Below, in pieces: positions 4,749-15,419 of a DNA stretch of 64,000 nucleotides (the stretch's first letter is position 1; every line of letters begins with the position of its first letter). The translations under genes were made by a program, and so were the position numbers. Below the pieces are notes generated by a model that searched no databases, was not told where the DNA came from, and worked only from the letters and a program-made list of their open reading frames with translations. The stretch covers positions 45,437 through 109,436 of the forward strand of contig JAVKOQ010000179.1 in NCBI GenBank assembly GCA_031835245.1. Direction: 5' to 3'. Origin of the DNA: Balamuthia mandrillaris. Its lineage: Eukaryota; Discosea; Longamoebia; Balamuthiidae.

Positions 4749-6629
4749 ATGTCTGACTTGATCGCACGTCCCTACACCCAACTCACCCAACTGGTGGAGG
4801 CCAGGCCGTGGCTGCGCACCATCCGCAACGTGGTGTTCTACGTGGTGGTTCTTCGCCTCGGCCTCAGCTTCTTCTGGCGGCTGTACGACTGCGGCCCGCG
4901 CCGCCTGCTCAGGGACCTCAAGAAGTACCTCCTCCTCACCTTCTTCACGCAGGTCAAACGGTTGCCCCTCATCAAAGGGACCATCCAGGGAGAGATCTCA
5001 AAGAACATGGACCAGGTGCGGAAGAGCCTCATCCCGCAGCTGCCGGAGGGCCTGCCGGTCTATAACGAGCTGCCCAAGGAGGGGCTCACCCCTGAGGAGA
5101 TCGAGGAGCAGCTCAGCATTATGAAGGGCATGGGCAAGCACCACTGGCAGGAGGGCAAGATTTCCGGCGCGGTTCGTTTATTGTTTTTATCTCTCTGCTT
5201 ATTCTTATTCTTCTTGCTTCTTGTCGTTGTTGTCTTGTCTTGTTTTGGTTCTTGTTGTTCTTCTTTCTTCTTTCTTCTTTCTTCTTTCTTCGTTCTTCCG
5301 CTTCTTTTCTTATATCCTGTTCCACCCGGCATGACTTTGCACATGTAGGTATACCACGGCGGAGAGGACATCACAAAGATCTCAGTACGAGCCTACGAGA
5401 TGTTCACATGGAGTAACCCACTGCACCCGGACGTCTTCCCTGGTGTGCGCAAGATGGAGGCAGAGGTGATCGCCATGGTCGTCAAGATGTTCAACGGCAG
5501 CGAGGAGGCCTGCGGCACCACCACCAGCGGCGGCACGGAGAGCATCCTCATGGCCTGCCGCGCCTATAGGGAGTGGGGTAAGGCCGTAAAGGGCATCACC
5601 AAGCCGGAGATCGTGGTCCCTTCCTCCGTGCACTGCGCCTTTGACAAGGCCTGCGACTACTTTGGCATCAAGCTCGTTCACGTACCCGTCTCCAAGAAGA
5701 CATGGAGTGCCGACATCGAGGCCATGCGTCGTGCCATCACCTCTAACACGGTGGCTCTTGTGGGCTCTGCCCCAAGCTTCCCTCACGGCACCATGGACGA
5801 CATTCAAGGGCTGGCCGCTCTAGCCCGGAGATACAATGTGGGACTGCATGTAGACAGCTGCCTGGGAGGCTTCTTGGTGCCTTTCATGGCCAAAGCGGGC
5901 TACCCTCTGCGTCCCTTTGACTTTAGAGTGCCCGGCGTGACCTCTATCTCCTGCGACACCCACAAGTACGGCTTTGCTCCCAAGGGCTCCTCCGTCATTC
6001 TCTACCGCAATAAGGAGCTGAGGAGCTTCCAGTACTTTGTGGCTCCCGACTGGCCAGGAGGCATCTACGCCTCCCCGACCATCGCCGGCAGCAGGCCCGG
6101 AGCCTTGATCGCCGCCTGCTGGGCCACCATGATGTCCGTCGGAGAAGAGGGCTACGTGCGTGCCACTAGGGAGGTCATTGCCAACACCAGAAAGATTGCC
6201 ACCGGCATCAAGAGCATTCCCGGCTTGAAGCTCCTTGGGGAGCCGCTGGTAAGCGTGGTGGCCTTCACCTCGGACCACTTTGACATCTACAGGTTGGGAG
6301 AGGAGATGAACCACAGAGGGTGGAATCTCAACAACCTGCAGTACCCTTCCAGCATTCACCTCTGCTTGACACCCGCCAACATGCATCGAGCGGATGACTT
6401 TGTGGCGGACCTTCAGAGCATTGCTGCTGAGCTCATGAAGAACCCTGCTGCGAGCAAGGCGCAAGGCGCTGGTGCTATCTATGGCATGTCACAGGCTGTG
6501 CCCGACCGTTCCATCATCGACCAAATTGCCCGAGGGTACATTGACGTTCTTTTTGAAAGCACGGCCTCCTCTGCTGGTTCCTCTTCTGCTGAAGACAGCA
6601 ACACTTCTAGAAAGGAGAGCAACAACTAA
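4749..6629 (+). CDS. SGPL1: Sphingosine-1-phosphate lyase
   Basis: PLP enzyme of the ER that cleaves sphingosine-1-phosphate to hexadecenal and phosphoethanolamine, the exit step of sphingolipid breakdown. Two exons, 4749-5171 and 5349-6629, join in phase to 566 residues, the same size as animal SGPL1 (about 568). A membrane segment lies at residues ~25-48 (VVFYVVVLRLGLSFFW), as expected for the ER-anchored enzyme. The PLP-decarboxylase fold follows, with TTSGGTESILMACRAYR, DSCLGGFLVPFM and the Schiff-base lysine in CDTHKYGFAPKG at about residue 347. The C-terminus is Ser-rich (SSAGSSSAEDS). The start is supported by the TATA box 34 bases upstream and the hydrophobic N-terminus. It is tail to tail with the VWA-eEF1A gene, 95 bases apart. 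The coding sequence is GC-richer than the surroundings, suggesting high expression. Confidence 0.97.
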
Positions 6630-6724: not shown

Positions 6725-9700
6725 CTATCGTCTTCCTCCTCTTTTGCCACGGGTAGCAGTGGCTTGCGAGAAGTAAGACTTGCCAGTGGCCAACCGTCCT
6801 TTTCCAGCGGCAGCTCTGCCCTTCCGTCCAAGCCCCGTTCCTCCTTTCTCCTCCTCCACGATCTCCTTCACAACACCAACCACCGCGGTCTGTCCTTGGT
6901 CCCTCATGAGGAAGCGTCCCAAGGGAGCCAGCTCCTGGAAGGTCTCCAAACAAACCGCTCGCCCTCCCTTTGGTCGCATGAGGCAGATGGCGGCCTCTCC
7001 CGTGCGAACCTTTTGGGGCTTCTCCTCCACCACTTTGCCAGTCCTCTTGTCCAGCTTTTGCAGCAGCTCCTCCACTCGGCAGGGAAAGGAGGCGGTGTGG
7101 CAGTAGAGTTGAGGGCAGAAGCCAGCGCTGATGCCGTTGCTGTGGTTGAGGACGAGGATCTGAGCGATGAAGGCCTTGACGGCACGAACGGGTCGGTCGT
7201 TGGCATGGCAGGCCACCAACCCTCGGTAGACGTGCTCCTTGTAGGGCTCAGGACAGTTCTTGACCTTGAAGCCGATGAGGTCGCCCGGCAGCACCTCCGC
7301 TCGGTCCGTGTGATGGATCTGAATGCTGGTCGTCTGGGCGGTCAAGCCCTCGGGCATCAGCATTAAGGTGTCGTTCTGACGAAGGACACCGCTGGCCACA
7401 CGACCGATGGCCACCGTTCCAACACCCGTCACCTTGAAGGATTGGAGAATGGGGATGCGAAGCGGTTTGTCCACCGGACGAACGGGGAGGGAAAGGTTGT
7501 CCAGGGCCTCCACCAAGGTCGTGCCCTTGGCGCCGGTCATGCCGTTGGTCCAACCCTCGTACCAAGGCATGTTCTCGGAGGGATAGATGAGGTTGTCGCC
7601 GTGGTAGCCGCTGATAGGGATGAAGACCGTTCTCTTGTCCTGGACGCCTACCTGTCGGAGGAGGCGCTGGACCTCACCTACAATCTCCTCGAAGCGCTTC
7701 TGAGCGTAGCCGACCGTGTCCATCTTGTTGACCGCCACGATGAAGTTCCTGACTCCCATGGTGTAGGCCACGAGGGCCTCCTCTCTAGTCATGCCCCCTC
7801 TGGCTATGCCAGCCTCGAACTCCCCATCGGTAGCACTGATGACCAAGATGGCCACGTCCGCCATGGAGGCGCCCACCGTCATGTTCTTAATGAAAGAGCG
7901 ATGGCCGGGAGCATCCAGGAGATCCACGTCATAGTTAGGCGTCTCCACGCTCCAACAGCTGACCTCGATGGTTACGCCGAGCTCGCGCTCAGTGCGGAGC
8001 TTGTCCATGACCCAGGCGTACTTGGACATGGTGTTCTTTCCGGCGGCTCTCGCGTCCCTCTCGTACTTCTCCACTATTCTCTTGTCCACAAAGCCCAACT
8101 CGGTGATGAGATGGCCAGAGGTGGTCGACTTGCCAGAGTCCACGTTGCCGATGATGACCACGGAGATGCGAGGCTTTCCGGTGACGCTTCTTGCTATTTG
8201 CTTGGCCACTGTGTAATGCTCGTCCAAGAGACGAGCGACCTCGGGGCGTGGAGGCACGAATGCTGCGTACGCTTTGTTGCGCCACTCTTTGGCTGCATTG
8301 TACTCTGCCAATTGAGTCTGGTTATAGAACAACGGGTCAGTCGATGTGAACAGACAGAAACAAGAAAAAAGCAAAGGAAGAAGAAGAAAAAAGAAAAGAT
8401 AAAGATAAAGAAGAGAACGTACAGTATTAAGCGTTTCAATGAGCTGATTTGTAGGATCCAACAAAGCACGCACCACGTCGTAATCCAGTCTAAACAGGCC
8501 ATAGCCATTGGAGGGACGTCCCTTCCAATGCCACAGCTTAAACACCGGCAACATCAGTTGCTTCCAGAACCTCTGCCAAAGGACGCGCCCGTCCTCTTTG
8601 TTCTTAAGGTCCAAGGTATGACCTTTGCCGGTCATCGTGTCCCTCACAAAGAGATTGTTGTTGCTGAGGTTGACCTGCAAGGTGCAGTGCTGCTCCGTCT
8701 CTTCATCCACCCAGGAGAGCAACGTGTGAGCAAAAGGCTCCTTGTGTTGGCGAAGCGGCTCCAAGCGAGTGATAACATGCTGCTCGAACTCGTTGGGAGA
8801 GCGAAAGGCTGCAAAGCTCTCTTTCAGTTTATCGATGGGATAGGTGGCGATGCAATGCCACACGAAGAACTGCCTTTGGAGGGTCCTCCAGCAGAAGGAT
8901 GCAGGGAAGGCCAGGCGCGTCTTCCTTTGTACCAGTTCGAAGAAGGTGGAGACGAGGAAAGGGAGCATGCCCTCTTTGGAGAGGAAGAGCAGGACTCGGG
9001 ATTGTTGTTCTTCCTCCGAGACATCATCATCGTTGAGCAACACCAACTGGCCCAACTCCTGCGCAATACGAAGTGCATCTTCTGGAATCTCTGCTTTGTT
9101 TTCTTCCTCCTCTTCTTCCTCCTCTTCTCCCCCTTCTTTCTTCTTTTCTGCTTCATCAGAAGAAGCAGCAGAAGATGAAGCAGCAGAAGAGGATGGTGAT
9201 GTTAGCTTGACCAAGTTACGCACCAACTGCCTCAACCACTTGCGAAGCACCATCTGCTCCGCCAACAGCTTCTCCGACAACCCCCTTTGCTGCGGGGGAG
9301 CAGCTGCTCCCTTCTTTACCTCCACTTTGCCCAACAACAGCTTGCAGGACCTGTAAAGACTGACCCTCTGGAGGGCCTCCAGCTTGGCCGCTGCCGGGAA
9401 CTCTCCATCGAGCAAGGCGTAGGCAAAGGCCTTGACCGGCATGTACTTTCCAGGAGAGTCGGCCTGTTTGAGGACGCTCCTGCCGTTCACAAGTTTCAGG
9501 ACAAGTCCCATGGCGTCGTGGTACTTGGGCAGGGTCTTGGGGTTATCTATCCAGCAGGCCAAGGTGGCCAGGATCTCGGCCATGCGGCTGACGTCCATGC
9601 CTGTGGGTGGCCTCTTCTTCATGTGCATCAGCAGGAAGCCGATGTAGAGGTTGCCCGTCTCCGTGAGAGGAGCCATCGGCGTGCCGGTCACGAACTCGCT

Positions 9701-12700
9701 CAGCAGGCCGGGGAGCAGGTTGGAGAGAACCAGGTTGGAGAGAGGCTCGGGGGCGATGGGCAGGGCAAAGTTAGCCGAGGAGAAGGTGCCTGGCACGCGA
9801 ACCAAGCTGTTCCCTTCCTTCTCTCCTTCTTTGTCGGCCAACCGCCAGAACAAACGAAAGTAGGCAAAGGAGGTGGCGTCCGAGCCTCCCTCCACAACAT
9901 GCATCATCTCCTTGGAGTTATAGATGAGGCCGGCAGACTGGTTAGGAGCAATGGTGTAGAGGAAGGCCGGCAGCGTGCTGTTCTCCTGGATAAGCTCCAG
10001 CATGGTGGAGAAGGAGAGGGGGTCGCAAAGCCGCTTGCAAGTCTCAGAGACGTCCTTGGAGAGCGCCACGACGGTGTGCCTGGCCACCACTCGCTCGGCA
10101 GGATAGATCTCTCCCAAGGTGAGGAGGCCGCTTCGCTCTCTCATCTCGGAGAGAGCGGTTCTGCCTCCGCCGACCAAACGATAGCGAACGCAAGAGAGGA
10201 GCTCTTCTGGGTTATTCTTGTTGTGGGTGATAACTTCCTCCACAAGCTCTGCCTTGGGGAAGAGCTTGCCCTTCTCCATCTCTTCCTTCAACAACCTCTG
10301 CAAGAGGGCAGCACGAGCCTCCGCCACGTCCTTGCCTTCCATGATGAGCAATGTGAGTGTGGTCTTGGGAGGTTCCTTTCCTTCCTCCTCTTCCTCCTCA
10401 TCCTCATCGCAAGCCAACAGGCAGACGCGATGAAGGAGGTCTCTGGCCCATGCTCCCCTCTGTGCTATCAGCCGCTCCACCTGTCGGTCCAGGGTGGACT
10501 GGGTGACAAAGCCATGGCCCAGCTGCACCTTCATGCTCTCCAACCCCGCCGCGATGGCCATCTGCTCCTTCGGGTTGAAGAACTCGGACTGCTTGGCCTG
10601 CGTCTTGTCGTAAGAGCCAGCCTCCGTGCGCAAGTACTGAGCCAACATTCTCTCGAGGGCTTTGGCCTGGGTGTCCACGCTCTCCAAGACCTTCTCCAGG
10701 AATGAGCGGAGGGCCACCTTGTTGCGAATGTGTTGAGCGAGGCTGATGATAGCCTCCATTCTTTGCTGCTTGAGCTGCTCCAAACGTTGGCTGGAGCGCT
10801 CCATGCCGCTGGGGCTGATGTCCTGGCCTATGGCAGAGAGGAGGCTCTCCAGTTGGGGCTCGAGGCTGAGAATCTTGGCCACGTGCGTGCTGACCTCTTC
10901 GGAAAGAACGCTGCTCTCGTGGCTCCTTAACCAATACTCTTTCCTCTTTCCTCCTTTGCCACAACGAAGAACAATGCCAGTCTTCTCTTCTGAAGAAGAA
11001 GCAGCGGAAGAAGGAGGAGCAACGATCTCTTCCATGAGGAATGACCAAGGAAGATGTCCTCTGGCGAAGAGAATGCCTTCCTTGGAGACAGCTGCCGGCA
11101 CGACGTGCTCGTTGCCCGTGCGAAGACCGTTGATGGTTAGCATGGTGTTGGTGCCGGAGGCCATCGCCGCCATCTCCCCTTTCAGTCTCTCGATGTCAGC
11201 CACCGCGTGAAAGTGTCCGTTGGAGGCCTCTCTCAAGGCCTTCAACAGCAGGGGATGAGCCTCACCAAAGTGGCAGACGTGAAACTCGAGGGAGCAGCCA
11301 CCACGGCGATCGCTGCTGTCCTCTTCGCTCTCATCCTGCAAGCGCTTGCAAGCTGTCTCCAAGTCGCCCACCATCTTCCTTTGGTACTCGGTCAGACCGG
11401 TGTGTGGGTCTTCCACGTTGAAGTAGTTGAACTTGGGGTCTGCCCTGTTGGAGGGAATGCGCAGCACTTGTTGCTTCGTGAGCGTGCTCTGCAGGTTGCT
11501 GGCGTTCTTGTTGATGGCGGAGTGGTCCAAGCAACGCGTCTCCTCGCCATCGGTCAAGAACCAGACCACCAGGTTGGAGATACGGTCTCGGCTCCTGAGC
11601 TCCTCCATTTGCTGAGCGATGGCAGCCAAGGCCGCCTCGATGTTGGTCCCTCCCGTCGCCACAAACACGCTCTCATTCGTCTTCTCTCTCAACATTCTCT
11701 CCATCTCCTCATCCTCCACAAACTCTTCTCCGCCCTCCATGTCGTCATCGTCCTCGTTCTCCTCTTCCTCTTCCTCTCCGCCTCCTTCCTTCTGCTTTTC
11801 TCCTTCTTTCTTGCCGTTCTTCTTGGAGGCATAAAACATGTCGGGAGTGAAGGTGATGGGGCGAGAGACGACGTTGTTCCAAACGAGGAGGGTCACCGGG
11901 ACGCCGTTCTTTAAAGCGGCCATGAAGAAGGGCGGGATGAGGTCTCTTGCCTTCTTGATGCTGCTATGAGGATGGTCGTTGGACTTGGGAGGGAGGTAGA
12001 TGCCCTTCTCATCGTGGTTCATCGAGGCACTGATGTCAAGACAGAAGATCACATGCGAGCTTCCTCCCTCCTCAGTGTTGCTTCTCAAGACCATTTGTTG
12101 TTCTTTCATCGAAGAGGAAGCATCGTCGGTCAACAGGTCGACAGTGGAGAAGAAATGGAGCTTCTTATCGGCCACCATCGGCACGAACAACAGCTGAGCC
12201 TGCTCGCACCACACCTGGTGCATGCGGGTGAACTGCTTGTGCCGCTCCATCTCCATCTCCGCCGTGTCTCTCTGCTTGAGCAGCGCTCTCTCTTGCTGCT
12301 GTTTACGCTCGGCCACGAGCTCGTTTGGGAGGAGCTTCGTCAGGGCCTCTGTCACGGCACGAAAGAGCTGTCGCTGACGGGCGACAACCGAGTCGTCGCC
12401 GCCGCCGAGGAGAATGTCCTCCAGGGTGTCAAACTGGCGGTCGCTCTCCTCCAAGTCCAAGAGTTGGGCGAGGGAGGTCACCCCCAGGGCGTTGCGGAGG
12501 GTGTCAAAGAGGCCCTCCACCTCCTCGCGGGTGGCGTCCGGCATGGAAAGGAGGTGCGCTTCGTTGGAAGGGAAGAGGACGGGCAGGAGTCGAGCCGTAT
12601 CAGTCTCCTTCGTGAGACTCGCCTCCTTCTCTTTCTCTTTTTCGGTTACATTGGTGGTTGTTGTGGTTGCGGTCTTCTTGGTTGCTCCTGTAGTGCTTGC

Positions 12701-12937
12701 CAGCAAACGAGAGGTCAAAGAGGCCAGCTCGGTTGACTCGAGAAAGCCGATGGCCACCAGACGAGCCAGCAGCGGAGCCGCTTTGGCCAGCGGTAACGCC
12801 AAGACCGGAGCGAGGAGAGCTTCCTTCTGATCGTTATAGAAAGGACCCAAGCCGTCCTTCAGGAGTAGCAACGCTTTGGCCTGTTCTTCCAGGGGTTCGA
12901 GGGCGACACTGGCCTCTGGTTCCTGTGTCCCCTCCAT
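6725..12937 (-). CDS. Fusion protein: von Willebrand A domain, long middle region, eEF1A-like GTPase
   Basis: Two exons on the minus strand, 12937-8423 and 8317-6725, give 2035 residues. Residues ~290-560 form a VWA domain: the MIDAS motif DISAS at 301-305, TGGTN, and FLTDGEET, interrupted by an acidic insert. Residues ~600-1500 are largely helical with acidic/Ser-rich stretches and match nothing I can name. From ~1555 to the end lies a full-length translation GTPase resembling eEF1A: GNVDSGKST (~1562), ERELGVTIEV, DAPGHRSF (~1640), VNKMD (~1702), domain 2/3 sequence, and a basic Gly/Arg tail. It departs from canonical eEF1A at GHVD (H to N), at RGITI (R to L) and at GHRD (D to S), so it is a divergent paralogue, not the housekeeping copy. 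The catalytic His of DAPGH is kept. The intron is a multiple of three and stop-free, so unspliced message stays open. Function unknown; a GTPase tied to a metal-dependent adhesion module is unusual. Confidence 0.88.
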   Translation of the reverse strand: MEGTQEPEASVALEPLEEQAKALLLLKDGLGPFYNDQKEALLAPVLALPLAKAAPLLARLVAIGFLESTELASLTSRLLASTTGATKKTATTTTTNVTEKEKEKEASLTKETDTARLLPVLFPSNEAHLLSMPDATREEVEGLFDTLRNALGVTSLAQLLDLEESDRQFDTLEDILLGGGDDSVVARQRQLFRAVTEALTKLLPNELVAERKQQQERALLKQRDTAEMEMERHKQFTRMHQVWCEQAQLLFVPMVADKKLHFFSTVDLLTDDASSSMKEQQMVLRSNTEEGGSSHVIFCLDISASMNHDEKGIYLPPKSNDHPHSSIKKARDLIPPFFMAALKNGVPVTLLVWNNVVSRPITFTPDMFYASKKNGKKEGEKQKEGGGEEEEEENEDDDDMEGGEEFVEDEEMERMLREKTNESVFVATGGTNIEAALAAIAQQMEELRSRDRISNLVVWFLTDGEETRCLDHSAINKNASNLQSTLTKQQVLRIPSNRADPKFNYFNVEDPHTGLTEYQRKMVGDLETACKRLQDESEEDSSDRRGGCSLEFHVCHFGEAHPLLLKALREASNGHFHAVADIERLKGEMAAMASGTNTMLTINGLRTGNEHVVPAAVSKEGILFARGHLPWSFLMEEIVAPPSSAASSSEEKTGIVLRCGKGGKRKEYWLRSHESSVLSEEVSTHVAKILSLEPQLESLLSAIGQDISPSGMERSSQRLEQLKQQRMEAIISLAQHIRNKVALRSFLEKVLESVDTQAKALERMLAQYLRTEAGSYDKTQAKQSEFFNPKEQMAIAAGLESMKVQLGHGFVTQSTLDRQVERLIAQRGAWARDLLHRVCLLACDEDEEEEEEGKEPPKTTLTLLIMEGKDVAEARAALLQRLLKEEMEKGKLFPKAELVEEVITHNKNNPEELLSCVRYRLVGGGRTALSEMRERSGLLTLGEIYPAERVVARHTVVALSKDVSETCKRLCDPLSFSTMLELIQENSTLPAFLYTIAPNQSAGLIYNSKEMMHVVEGGSDATSFAYFRLFWRLADKEGEKEGNSLVRVPGTFSSANFALPIAPEPLSNLVLSNLLPGLLSEFVTGTPMAPLTETGNLYIGFLLMHMKKRPPTGMDVSRMAEILATLACWIDNPKTLPKYHDAMGLVLKLVNGRSVLKQADSPGKYMPVKAFAYALLDGEFPAAAKLEALQRVSLYRSCKLLLGKVEVKKGAAAPPQQRGLSEKLLAEQMVLRKWLRQLVRNLVKLTSPSSSAASSSAASSDEAEKKKEGGEEEEEEEEENKAEIPEDALRIAQELGQLVLLNDDDVSEEEQQSRVLLFLSKEGMLPFLVSTFFELVQRKTRLAFPASFCWRTLQRQFFVWHCIATYPIDKLKESFAAFRSPNEFEQHVITRLEPLRQHKEPFAHTLLSWVDEETEQHCTLQVNLSNNNLFVRDTMTGKGHTLDLKNKEDGRVLWQRFWKQLMLPVFKLWHWKGRPSNGYGLFRLDYDVVRALLDPTNQLIETLNTVRSLLYLYLFFFLLLPLLFSCFCLFTSTDPLFYNQTQLAEYNAAKEWRNKAYAAFVPPRPEVARLLDEHYTVAKQIARSVTGKPRISVVIIGNVDSGKSTTSGHLITELGFVDKRIVEKYERDARAAGKNTMSKYAWVMDKLRTERELGVTIEVSCWSVETPNYDVDLLDAPGHRSFIKNMTVGASMADVAILVISATDGEFEAGIARGGMTREEALVAYTMGVRNFIVAVNKMDTVGYAQKRFEEIVGEVQRLLRQVGVQDKRTVFIPISGYHGDNLIYPSENMPWYEGWTNGMTGAKGTTLVEALDNLSLPVRPVDKPLRIPILQSFKVTGVGTVAIGRVASGVLRQNDTLMLMPEGLTAQTTSIQIHHTDRAEVLPGDLIGFKVKNCPEPYKEHVYRGLVACHANDRPVRAVKAFIAQILVLNHSNGISAGFCPQLYCHTASFPCRVEELLQKLDKRTGKVVEEKPQKVRTGEAAICLMRPKGGRAVCLETFQELAPLGRFLMRDQGQTAVVGVVKEIVEEEKGGTGLGRKGRAAAGKGRLATGKSYFSQATATRGKRGGRR
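8318..8422 (-). other. 105-base stop-free intron, a multiple of three, in the VWA-eEF1A gene
   Basis: Donor GTACGT and acceptor CAG bound 105 bases that read through in frame without a stop, encoding about 35 mostly Leu/Phe residues. Splicing restores LNT-TQLAEYNAAK; retention would insert a membrane-like segment just before the GTPase. Sequence alone cannot tell whether retention occurs. Confidence 0.75.
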
Positions 12938-13105: not shown

Positions 13106-14336
13106 AAATTTCTCGTAATGAAGAGAACATTTATCGATAATTAGACCTGGGAAGGGAGCGAAGGTTTATTTGCTGGACACTGGTCGTTATATATCAAGTT
13201 GAATGAGCCAAAGGGAAAGAAACATAAAATCAACGTTTACAACACGAACAATGAGGGCAAAGCATGAAGAATGAAACTCTAAAGAGTGACGCCAAGCGGT
13301 ATGTAAGCAGTTGAAAACTCTAAGACGCCGAATCGCCCTCTCCACTTTCCACACGTTCTGCTCCCAACAGCCGGTTAAACACTTGAGCCAACTCGCCCAA
13401 GCTTTGTCCTCGCTCTCTCTTGATGGGAGTTAAAAAAACTCGGCTCGCCCCGGTAAGCAAGGTCGCCTAAAAGGCTCTCACGAACAGAAAGGTAATTGAG
13501 AACGCCTTGACGAGCGATTTTGAGGTCATGCACTGAACCTGGAAAAGGGCCGTTGACCCAGGAAAAGAGCTCCGTTGCCAAGTCCCACACAAGTTCATAT
13601 TTGACTGTGTGCTGCTTTTTTTTTTGCCAGAATAAATGTACGTTGAGTGTTGGCATTCATAGAACGCTGAACAGGACACTCTGTAGTGTCTATGATGCCT
13701 GTGACTAAAGGTTGGTGGAGAACTTGGCCGTGACACTGATCAAAGTGCTTTACAAGCAAAAAAAAAAAAAGGAAAAAAAGGAAAAAAGAACAAGAAAAAA
13801 GATTAGCGCAAGGAAAGAAGAATGACAGTAAAGAGAAAAAGAAAAGAAAGAAAAAAATGGAGAAACAAGAAGAAGTACAACAACAAAAAGAAAGAGCAAA
13901 AGTGAAAAAGAGAAAGGGAGAGGAGAGGAGAGGAGGGAAGCAATAAAAGACCTTAAACGTGGTTCCAATAATGCTTCAACGACATGACGGACCCAAAATC
14001 GAAAAGTTTTGGGAGTACAACGGCAAAAAGTGCAACCCACGTCCTCAGTGGGATACACTTTCAAGAAGTAAAGCGTCCAAAGCAAGTATTTGCAAGTAAA
14101 TGGTCGCTCAAATTGACATCCTTGCACAATACACATTAACACAACCGTTGTTTCATACTTTAAAGTTCGTCATAGTTTGTTGCTTGTTCTTTCAAACTTC
14201 AAACTTCAATCTGACGGATACCTGACGGAAACACAGTGCGAACCCTTAAGATCTCGATCCTCTCCAAACGAAATTTAATTCAATTTGTCCAATTATCAAT
14301 CAATCGATCTGCAACGATCTTCATTCTACGAAATTT
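13106..14336. mobile_element. Decayed DDE-type DNA transposon with imperfect terminal inverted repeats
   Basis: The 1.23-kb segment is bounded by AAATTTCTCGTAATGAAGAG (13106-13125) and, in inverted orientation, a copy reading AAATTTCGTAGAATGAAGAT (14317-14336 on the complement). They align with two small gaps and one terminal mismatch. Between them lies a transposase pseudogene on the minus strand. I could not see a clear target-site duplication. The ends are therefore tentative, but the transposase remnant itself is secure. Confidence 0.6.
13187..14142 (-). pseudogene. Transposase pseudogene, DDE_Tnp_4 (Harbinger/IS5-like) type
   Basis: Read on the minus strand, the region holds a DDE transposase in broken frames. 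Order: HTH part with FLKVYPTEDVGCTF and RFWVRHVVEALL; after a probable intron (about 13760-13950), first Asp in TGIIDTTECPVQR; SGKKK/QHTVKYELVWDL; second Asp in NGPFPGSVHDLKIA; GDLAYRGEP; TPIKRERGQSLGELAQ; and the Glu in KVERAIRRLRVF. Frames shift at least three times: between VQR and the SGKKK motif or within the A10 run (13616-13625), at the seven-A/T run near 13434, and near 13361. Motifs stay recognisable across shifts, so decay is recent or the copy was silenced not long ago. All neighbouring genes are intact, which argues against poor sequence quality as the sole cause. It can only act if complemented in trans. Confidence 0.8.
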
Positions 14337-14513
14337 CTATACTTGAAAAAGCGGAAAGAAGAAAGTAAAAAAAGATGAGCAAGTCTTCTAGCGTTACCAC
14401 GGTGGCTATAGTTCTTTTTGAAGGTTTTTTTTTTGTTTGTTTGCAAACGGTGAGACCATAAAATATTTTACAAAACACATACACACACACGCACACACGC
14501 ACATACACACACA
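14143..14513. other. Gap between transposase remnant and SANT/Myb gene, with CA repeat
   Basis: The 371 bases include the right inverted repeat of the transposon (to 14336), a T run near 14426-14440 and a CA/CACG-rich tract (about 14474-14513) that abuts the ATG of the SANT/Myb gene. No TATA box or further gene is seen. Confidence 0.5.
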
Positions 14514-15419
14514 ATGAGTAGCGGAAGAGGCAAGACATGGACCGCAGAGGAACTAAAAGTTGTAAGTGACGCCTTCAAAAGCTTCAACGGAGACTGGGAA
14601 AAAGCATGTCCCATGTTGACGAAGGACTTTGGCAAATCTCGATCTGTGGCCGCCATTCATAGGAAATGGAAAGACCTATCGAGTGCAAAGCAGATGAAGT
14701 CAACAAAAAAAGGTAATGGTAGTTGCTCTTAGCCTTTGAAGGGCTCTGCTAACTTTTGTTTACAAGCACCCCCACCCTCTACCTCTGTGATTAATGACCT
14801 TTTTGCGTTGAGAAACAATACAAGGCGAACTGCTGAGCCTTTCTTAGATCAGGAGGCAGAAGAAGCAATGGGCTTTTCTGAAGAGGAGAAAGAGGAAGAA
14901 GAAGAAGAGGAAGAAGAAGAACTGCCTGCGCCACAATACCCAAATGTGGCTGTACAACAACCAAACAACACGCAGCACAGTTCGCCAACACAAAGGCTCA
15001 AGCGCAAACGCCTTTCTTCTTCATCACCACTACCACACCAACTCACTCCATCACCACAACAAGACATCTGGTTTTGGCGTGCTCAGACAACTGATGCTGT
15101 GGTCCTGGTTCTGCGAAATCTTCCAGGCTACCGGGCGGAAGTAAAACGAGATGAGACTGACCAAAACAAAATATGGGTGATCATCAAAAGGCTTCCATTG
15201 TTGGAAGTTGAACTGCAGGCCATATTTTCTGCTATGCAACTGCGAGGTGTTGGGCAAGATGCATGGCGGTCAGCTAACCAAGCCAAGACCTTTAAATTTC
15301 CACTTACATTTTCAAATAGGTTAGAATGGTCATCTACATGGCATATGATAGAGAAAGGAGGCTTTTATTTTTGGACCATTCCCTTTCAACTTGACAACAA
15401 TAGATTTTTATATTTGTAG
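14514..15419 (+). CDS. SANT/Myb-like domain protein, function unknown
   Basis: Exons 14514-14712 and 14767-15419 join in phase to 283 residues. Residues ~8-58 resemble one SANT/Myb repeat with spaced aromatic residues: KTWTAEELKVVSDAF, FNGDWEKACPML, VAAIHRKWKDLSS. An acidic run of Glu, a Ser/Pro-rich stretch with KRKRLSSSSP (possible nuclear signal), and a C-terminal part with DIWFWRAQTTDAVVLVLRNL and WHMIEKGGFYFW follow. I recognise no domain in the last ~110 residues. PIF/Harbinger transposons typically encode a transposase and a Myb/SANT-like partner, and here a DDE transposase remnant lies head to head 371 bases away; the gene may therefore be a surviving or domesticated transposon protein. 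An ordinary host DNA-binding protein is equally possible. Reading frame and splice sites are clean. Confidence 0.6.

Follow-up and report, generated by a model that had tools for sequence, protein, structure and literature searches.

A conserved family of eEF1A paralogues joined to a VWA domain, with a changed aminoacyl pocket, in Balamuthia mandrillaris and Pelomyxa schiedti

Among the ancient paralogues of eEF1A in eukaryotes, a survey of translational GTPases names eRF3, Hbs1, and EFL (PMC4342817). For the bacterial counterpart EF-Tu, one account places Lys90 and Arg300 at the tRNA 5′ phosphate and Ile231, Val237, Leu289, and Glu271 at the 3′ end, with His67, Glu226, Asp227, Phe229, Thr239, and Asn285 lining the aminoacyl pocket (PMC4329189). 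In SelB, an EF-Tu-like factor, the equivalents of the pocket Asp and Asn are described as both changed to Arg for a special acyl group (PMC4150793). Here we describe a gene of Balamuthia mandrillaris on contig JAVKOQ010000179.1, within an analyzed stretch of 64,000 nucleotides (the window, to which all coordinates refer), whose product joins N-terminal helices, a VWA fold with an intact metal ion-dependent adhesion site (MIDAS), a middle region of about 900 residues, and a full three-domain eEF1A-type GTPase, in that order (Table 1). It belongs to a conserved family of eEF1A paralogues, named VEF here, with 15 members including the window protein. From sequence comparison we propose, at roughly even odds (about 0.5), that VEF is a tRNA-type factor, tethered to a VWA scaffold, that either has a changed acyl specificity or takes uncharged tRNA.

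The GTPase is of the EF1A family: the GTP_EFTU, domain 2, and domain 3 profiles all score above cut-off in the window protein, and the catalytic His of the DxPGH motif is present, as it is in 12 of 13 family members compared. The first-pass annotation, which had read a complete eEF1A-type module with all nucleotide motifs and this His, is borne out on that point. The module is about 48% identical to Balamuthia’s own eEF1A, and its best PDB matches are to eEF1A (481.5 bits) rather than eRF3 (283.2 bits), yet it falls short of the eEF1A equivalog TIGR00483 (482.1 bits against a cut-off of 540.1). In a tree of 41 rows, the 13 complete VEF GTPases form one group with support of 100/100, present in every one of 200 bootstrap trees, while eEF1A (six rows, 97/91), HBS1 (100/99), and archaeal EF1A (72/90) each fall on one side of a branch. 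The sampling comprised 15 of 80 archaeal and other loci, minus L031 (166 residues, too short), and seven HBS1-like matches. On these sequences the VEF GTPases lie outside the eEF1A, HBS1, and archaeal EF1A groups, with the deep order between groups not settled. By domain and fold, VEF belongs to the EF1A superfamily, and by the tests made it stands outside eEF1A, HBS1, and eRF3, the tree holding no rows for eRF3, EFL, or SelB.

What distinguishes VEF within this superfamily is the contrast between two parts of the tRNA-binding surface, for which equivalences among E. coli EF-Tu, rabbit eEF1A, and VEF were taken from one alignment. Five acceptor-end positions were scored (K100, N101, E293, H296, and R322), N101 and H296 being added as what we take to be the equivalents of EF-Tu Asn91 and Arg274, with roles assumed from general knowledge. 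All 13 VEF proteins keep four or five of the five (the window protein four), whereas each of the seven HBS1 sequences keeps one or two, the pattern taken to mark HBS1 being Pro at K100 and no Arg at 322. Likewise, the terminal-A pocket positions I256 and V262 carry Ile or Val in 13 of 13 VEF proteins and in none of the seven HBS1. The aminoacyl pocket reads differently. At Q251, D252, Y254, and N307, the 19 canonical sequences keep three or four letters, the 13 VEF proteins none to two, and the window protein none; EF-Tu positions His67 and Thr239 were left unscored because eEF1A already differs there. All 19 canonical sequences have D252, as do EF-Tu and six of seven HBS1, but no VEF protein does; there it gives way to Lys or Arg (nine), Gln (two), Asn (one), or Glu (one). 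N307, kept in all 19 canonical sequences and EF-Tu, survives in one of 13, the Asn becoming aliphatic. Among the rows examined, separation is complete between VEF and HBS1 on the acceptor-end residues, and between VEF and canonical EF1A on D252.

A wider signature accompanies these changes. VEF is invariant at 50 of the 115 columns that do not vary among the 19 canonical sequences, and six substitutions (H7R/K, N9S/C, T88D, Q132M, H136E, and E268A/V/I) occur five or six at a time in VEF and at most once in every other row. The first-pass annotation had stressed GNVD, LGVTI, and DAPGHRS; these departures are real, but less diagnostic than T88D, H136E, E268 to Ala, Val, or Ile, and the loss of D252, each found in 13 of 13.

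Several observations count against a rebuilt pocket on a conserved tRNA grip. The four pocket letters are also few in HBS1 (one or two) and in E. coli EF-Tu (two), which carries ordinary aminoacyl-tRNA; D252 and N307 therefore bear most of the weight of the pocket argument. N311, the equivalent of the 3′-end residue Leu289, is kept in only four of 13 VEF proteins. The window protein itself has Gln rather than Lys or Arg at D252, and Gln at E293; in the Pelomyxa protein, Thr replaces the catalytic His, and both N307 and Q251 are retained. The contrast between columns is small, with three of three pocket columns lost against none of five acceptor columns (Fisher p 0.018, or 0.029 without R322, which varies in the canonical set). 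Moreover, EF-Tu recognizes the α-amino group partly by main chain, and pocket changes need not exclude ordinary aminoacyl-tRNA. The low pocket scores of EF-Tu and HBS1 on one side and the terminal-A pocket and D252 on the other roughly balance. A literature search for T-stem residues found none, and the site comparison covers the acceptor end and the pocket.

The proposed tRNA-type factor suggests the following scheme. When bound to GTP, the C-terminal module would grip the 5′ phosphate and terminal A of a tRNA acceptor end much like eEF1A, while its pocket would suit another kind of 3′ end, that of a tRNA left uncharged or of one bearing an unusual acyl group. The module would then meet the ribosomal GTPase center, where the conserved His may support hydrolysis. 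The VWA domain, through its MIDAS, and the middle region may bind a partner via a divalent metal, and hydrolysis on the ribosome would switch that partner. A single locus in each haplotype, in addition to a normal eEF1A, fits a protein that senses or regulates the state of translation rather than one for bulk elongation. It is conceivable, although we offer this only tentatively, that VEF represents a class of eEF1A-derived factors bringing tRNA with a non-standard 3′ end to the ribosome, coupled through the VWA/MIDAS and the 900-residue region to a signaling or quality-control response in amoebae. SelB offers a partial parallel: its Asp change resembles the Lys or Arg found in nine of 13 VEF proteins (Gln in the window protein), whereas the VEF Asn goes aliphatic rather than to Arg, and SelB is of a different subfamily absent from the tree.

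The family itself was assembled by searching about 5.8 billion proteins, twice with a single sequence and once with an alignment, each search scoring the 7,974 to 7,987 candidates with the most shared words. Fourteen of the 15 members hold the VWA part, the middle, and the GTPase in the same order; the other, P0044, is a fragment that begins within the VWA and stops in the middle region, before the GTPase. P0010 and P0035 begin inside the VWA, and P0035 has a truncated GTPase as well, so that the GTPase tree and residue tables use 13 members, without P0035 and P0044. The 13 aligned relatives share 40–52% identity with the window protein in the VWA, 31–41% in the middle, and 44–52% in the GTPase. 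Named hosts are Balamuthia (Discosea) and Pelomyxa schiedti (Evosea), in two phyla of Amoebozoa; the latter answers the earlier suggestion to seek this architecture in other amoebozoans. The alignment search did not return P0015 or P0035, both of which align within the family, and these searches thus do not show that other amoebae lack it. At its N-terminus P0015 matches an integrase H2C2 zinc-binding domain (E 2.3e-9), which probably reflects a retroelement fused to the gene in the model, and a short basic-aromatic C-terminal motif such as KYF[KR] occurs in P0005, P0008, P0010, and P0016. A JGI metagenome protein of 1836 residues (P0037) likewise combines a VWA with an eEF1A-like GTPase in a single chain; it differs in its endonuclease V domain, in a profile comparison that aligned only the GTPase, and in a very long tree branch, and was excluded from the residue tables. 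A search for it in viral_contigs gave one stretch, not confirmed.

Of the competing explanations, the best placed is that VEF works off the ribosome as a GTP-switched scaffold, a moonlighting eEF1A module acting, for example, on the actin cytoskeleton, with the VWA recruiting partners. The protein's size, its several domains, and its intact metal site would suit such a role, as would the pocket changes and the absence of the catalytic His from one of 13 members, and eEF1A binds actin in amoebae. We nonetheless think it unlikely: a scaffold leaves unexplained why every VEF GTPase compared keeps at least four acceptor-end residues and why nearly all keep the His. The structural model is also closest to GTP-form or ribosome-engaged EF1A (with 3wxm among the matches), although model conformation is weak evidence. 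The ubiquitin-like scaffold raised in the first-pass annotation found no evidence, and no test aimed at one was made.

Alternatively, VEF may be an auxiliary elongation factor for ordinary aminoacyl-tRNA, in which pocket changes merely tune affinity and the N-terminal parts regulate. Its identity to eEF1A and its acceptor-end residues would agree with this, and EF-Tu itself shares only two of the four pocket letters with eEF1A. The uniform replacement of D252, however, in a position that canonical factors and EF-Tu hold without exception, makes this quite improbable, as do the missed eEF1A equivalog cut-off and the presence in Balamuthia of both a canonical eEF1A (C53) and a second paralogue with an ordinary pocket (four of four letters). 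This second eEF1A-like gene, at loci L015–L018 (G000:C414, C46, C6, and C195), encodes about 443 residues, 66% identical to canonical eEF1A, with ordinary tRNA-binding residues; the copies at C6 and C195 are without the NKMD-containing stretch. Set against eEF1A as a whole, VEF shares the three domains, nucleotide motifs, catalytic His, and acceptor-end residues, and departs in its pocket, T88D, H136E, and N-terminal extension as well as its score.

More doubtful again is a rescue or termination GTPase of the HBS1/eRF3 type, carrying a tRNA-shaped protein of the Pelota or eRF1 kind. HBS1 and eRF3 are themselves eEF1A paralogues with large N-terminal extensions, HBS1 too holds few pocket letters, and Pelota also has a partner in archaeal EF1A, whose acceptor-end residues are the same (the complex in 3wxm). 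The acceptor-end residues lost in HBS1 are kept in VEF, however, and the two form separate groups in the tree (which lacks eRF3, a factor compared by PDB sequence score only). Balamuthia also has its own eRF3 at C40 (219 bits to eRF3a against 149 to Hbs1) and HBS1 at C30 (168 bits to Hbs1l, 135 to eEF1A, and 123 to eRF3). Identity of the window protein with HBS1 or eRF3 is rejected on the PDB scores, the tree, these separate genes, the acceptor-end residues, and the lack of the HBS1 pattern at K100 and Arg-322. To our knowledge, no VWA has been reported in HBS1 or eRF3. Because Balamuthia has separate eEF1A, eRF3, and HBS1 genes, the name eRF3 given to the window protein at NCBI is misleading, as is eEF1A for the Pelomyxa protein. 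Of the roles first guessed for this locus, a GTP-dependent adaptor stays plausible, while ribosome rescue of the HBS1/eRF3 type is disfavored.

An assembly chimera, two separate genes, or a pseudogene can be set aside, given a second haplotype (G000:C109) that is also fused and has matching flanks, the same order in 14 proteins, and six relatives that are transcriptome-style EukProt records with TRINITY names (P0003, P0005, P0010, P0011, P0012, and P0035). The minus-strand frame runs from an ATG at 12937 to a stop at 6725 and is open unspliced for 2070 codons; removal of one intron gives 2035 residues, the length of NCBI protein P0001, which matches the window protein at 100% over both searched regions. 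The fusion in a two-exon product, as first described, is confirmed by this length, the second haplotype, and the relatives. Since the intron in the window copy has no stop codon and a length that is a multiple of three, the frame alone is no proof of it. In G000:C109, read as the other haplotype because its flanks match on both sides, the intron is 106 nucleotides long (one 2-nucleotide and one 3-nucleotide indel), which shifts the frame and brings in a TGA, whereas indels in the coding sequence measure 12 and 3 nucleotides; the sole frame-breaking indel sits in the intron, which supports the call. Between haplotypes, nonsynonymous over synonymous divergence (dN/dS, NG86, coding) is 0.0063/0.069 overall, 0.017/0.080 for codons 1–300, 0.0061/0.085 for 301–650, 0.0049/0.055 for 651–1540, and 0.0027/0.077 for the remainder, low in every part, and the gene is under purifying selection. 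Among the matches listed for the exon 1 part in the Balamuthia genome, only the window locus and G000:C109 appear.

Table 1 Features of the VEF gene in the window (all on the minus strand)
Feature	Coordinates	Residues	Details
Whole gene	6725..12937	1–2035	ATG to stop, two exons; P0001, second haplotype G000:C109
Exon 1	8423..12937	1–1505	
Intron	8318..8422		105 nucleotides, GT-AG, stop-free, divisible by three in the window copy
Exon 2	6725..8317	1506–2035	plus stop
N-terminal helical part	12230..12901	13–236	AlphaFold2 model; like starts in relatives with long N-termini
VWA domain	11159..12064	292–593	carries an acidic insert
MIDAS DISAS	12023..12037	301–305	
MIDAS Thr431 (GGTN)	11645..11647	431	invariant in 15 sequences
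MIDAS TDGEE	11540..11554	462–466	15/15 sequences
Middle region	8438..11158	594–1500	31–41% identity to relatives
Strongly conserved middle block	9338..10024	972–1200	many invariant polar residues
GTPase domain	7496..8173		P-loop, switches, NKMD, catalytic His
EF-Tu/eEF1A domain 2 region	7223..7480	exon-2 residues about 280–365	PF03144 match 300–353; altered aminoacyl pocket
EF-Tu/eEF1A domain 3	6860..7192		PF03143, PF22594

The N-terminal parts are less readily placed. The window protein has the VWA fold with MIDAS that marks the VWA superfamily, and the metal site first read from DISAS, TGGTN, and TDGEE holds up across the family. Of the Pfam profiles suggested for checking, GTP_EFTU, PF03144, and PF03143 came out above cut-off, but PF00092 stayed below gathering (15 against 23.8 bits), as did PF13519 (17 against 27 bits). 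Intracellular VWA proteins such as Rpn10, Ku, TFIIH p44, and ArnAB differ from VEF, whose VWA is fused to a translation-type GTPase and lies below the Pfam cut-offs. For the middle region, relatives outside the family were not found in Pfam or PDB sequences, and a PDB profile search with residues 678–1200 gave three weak matches (best E 0.16) and no known fold; AlphaFold2 confidence is low at residues 989–1111. Structure comparison of the 1–1200 model listed VWA-containing ranges and barely probed the parts outside the VWA. Against BFVD, Foldseek listed VWA proteins of giant viruses at low TM-scores (0.19–0.22); the best, A0A481Z006 of Marseillevirus LCMAC202, aligned over 1007 columns at E 4.4e-11, against 1.4e-4 for the best PDB match. 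PADLOC gave no match for exon 1 and two for exon 2 at E 0.05–0.06, and PHROGs one for exon 1 at E 0.04. For the VWA-middle part, an origin in prokaryotes or viruses was rejected: tblastn confirmed none of the stretches that pattern scans had picked out (48 from genome_contigs, 19 and 41 from viral_contigs), although these scans used two short patterns each and are weak evidence of absence.

Around the gene, about 2.26 kb just upstream (13143–15403) is absent from the other haplotype, the one exception to the agreement of the flanks. A DNA search with 13200–15350 gave 82 genome matches, those above 500 bases being 83–96% identical (self-match aside), and the insertion is probably a mobile or dispersed repeat. 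On the plus strand, the neighboring frame at 5349–6629 presumably encodes a protein resembling sphingosine-1-phosphate lyase.

Literature searches, covering open-licence PMC papers and judged by title and abstract start, found no account of this architecture among the papers listed, in keeping with the earlier remark that no described protein with this order was known. The middle region of VEF is large and conserved, yet Pfam and PDB sequences yielded no relative for it. With a length of up to about 2000 residues, tRNA-end contacts kept, and the amino-acid pocket rebuilt, VEF would add another eEF1A paralogue, and it poses a sharp and testable question of cargo.

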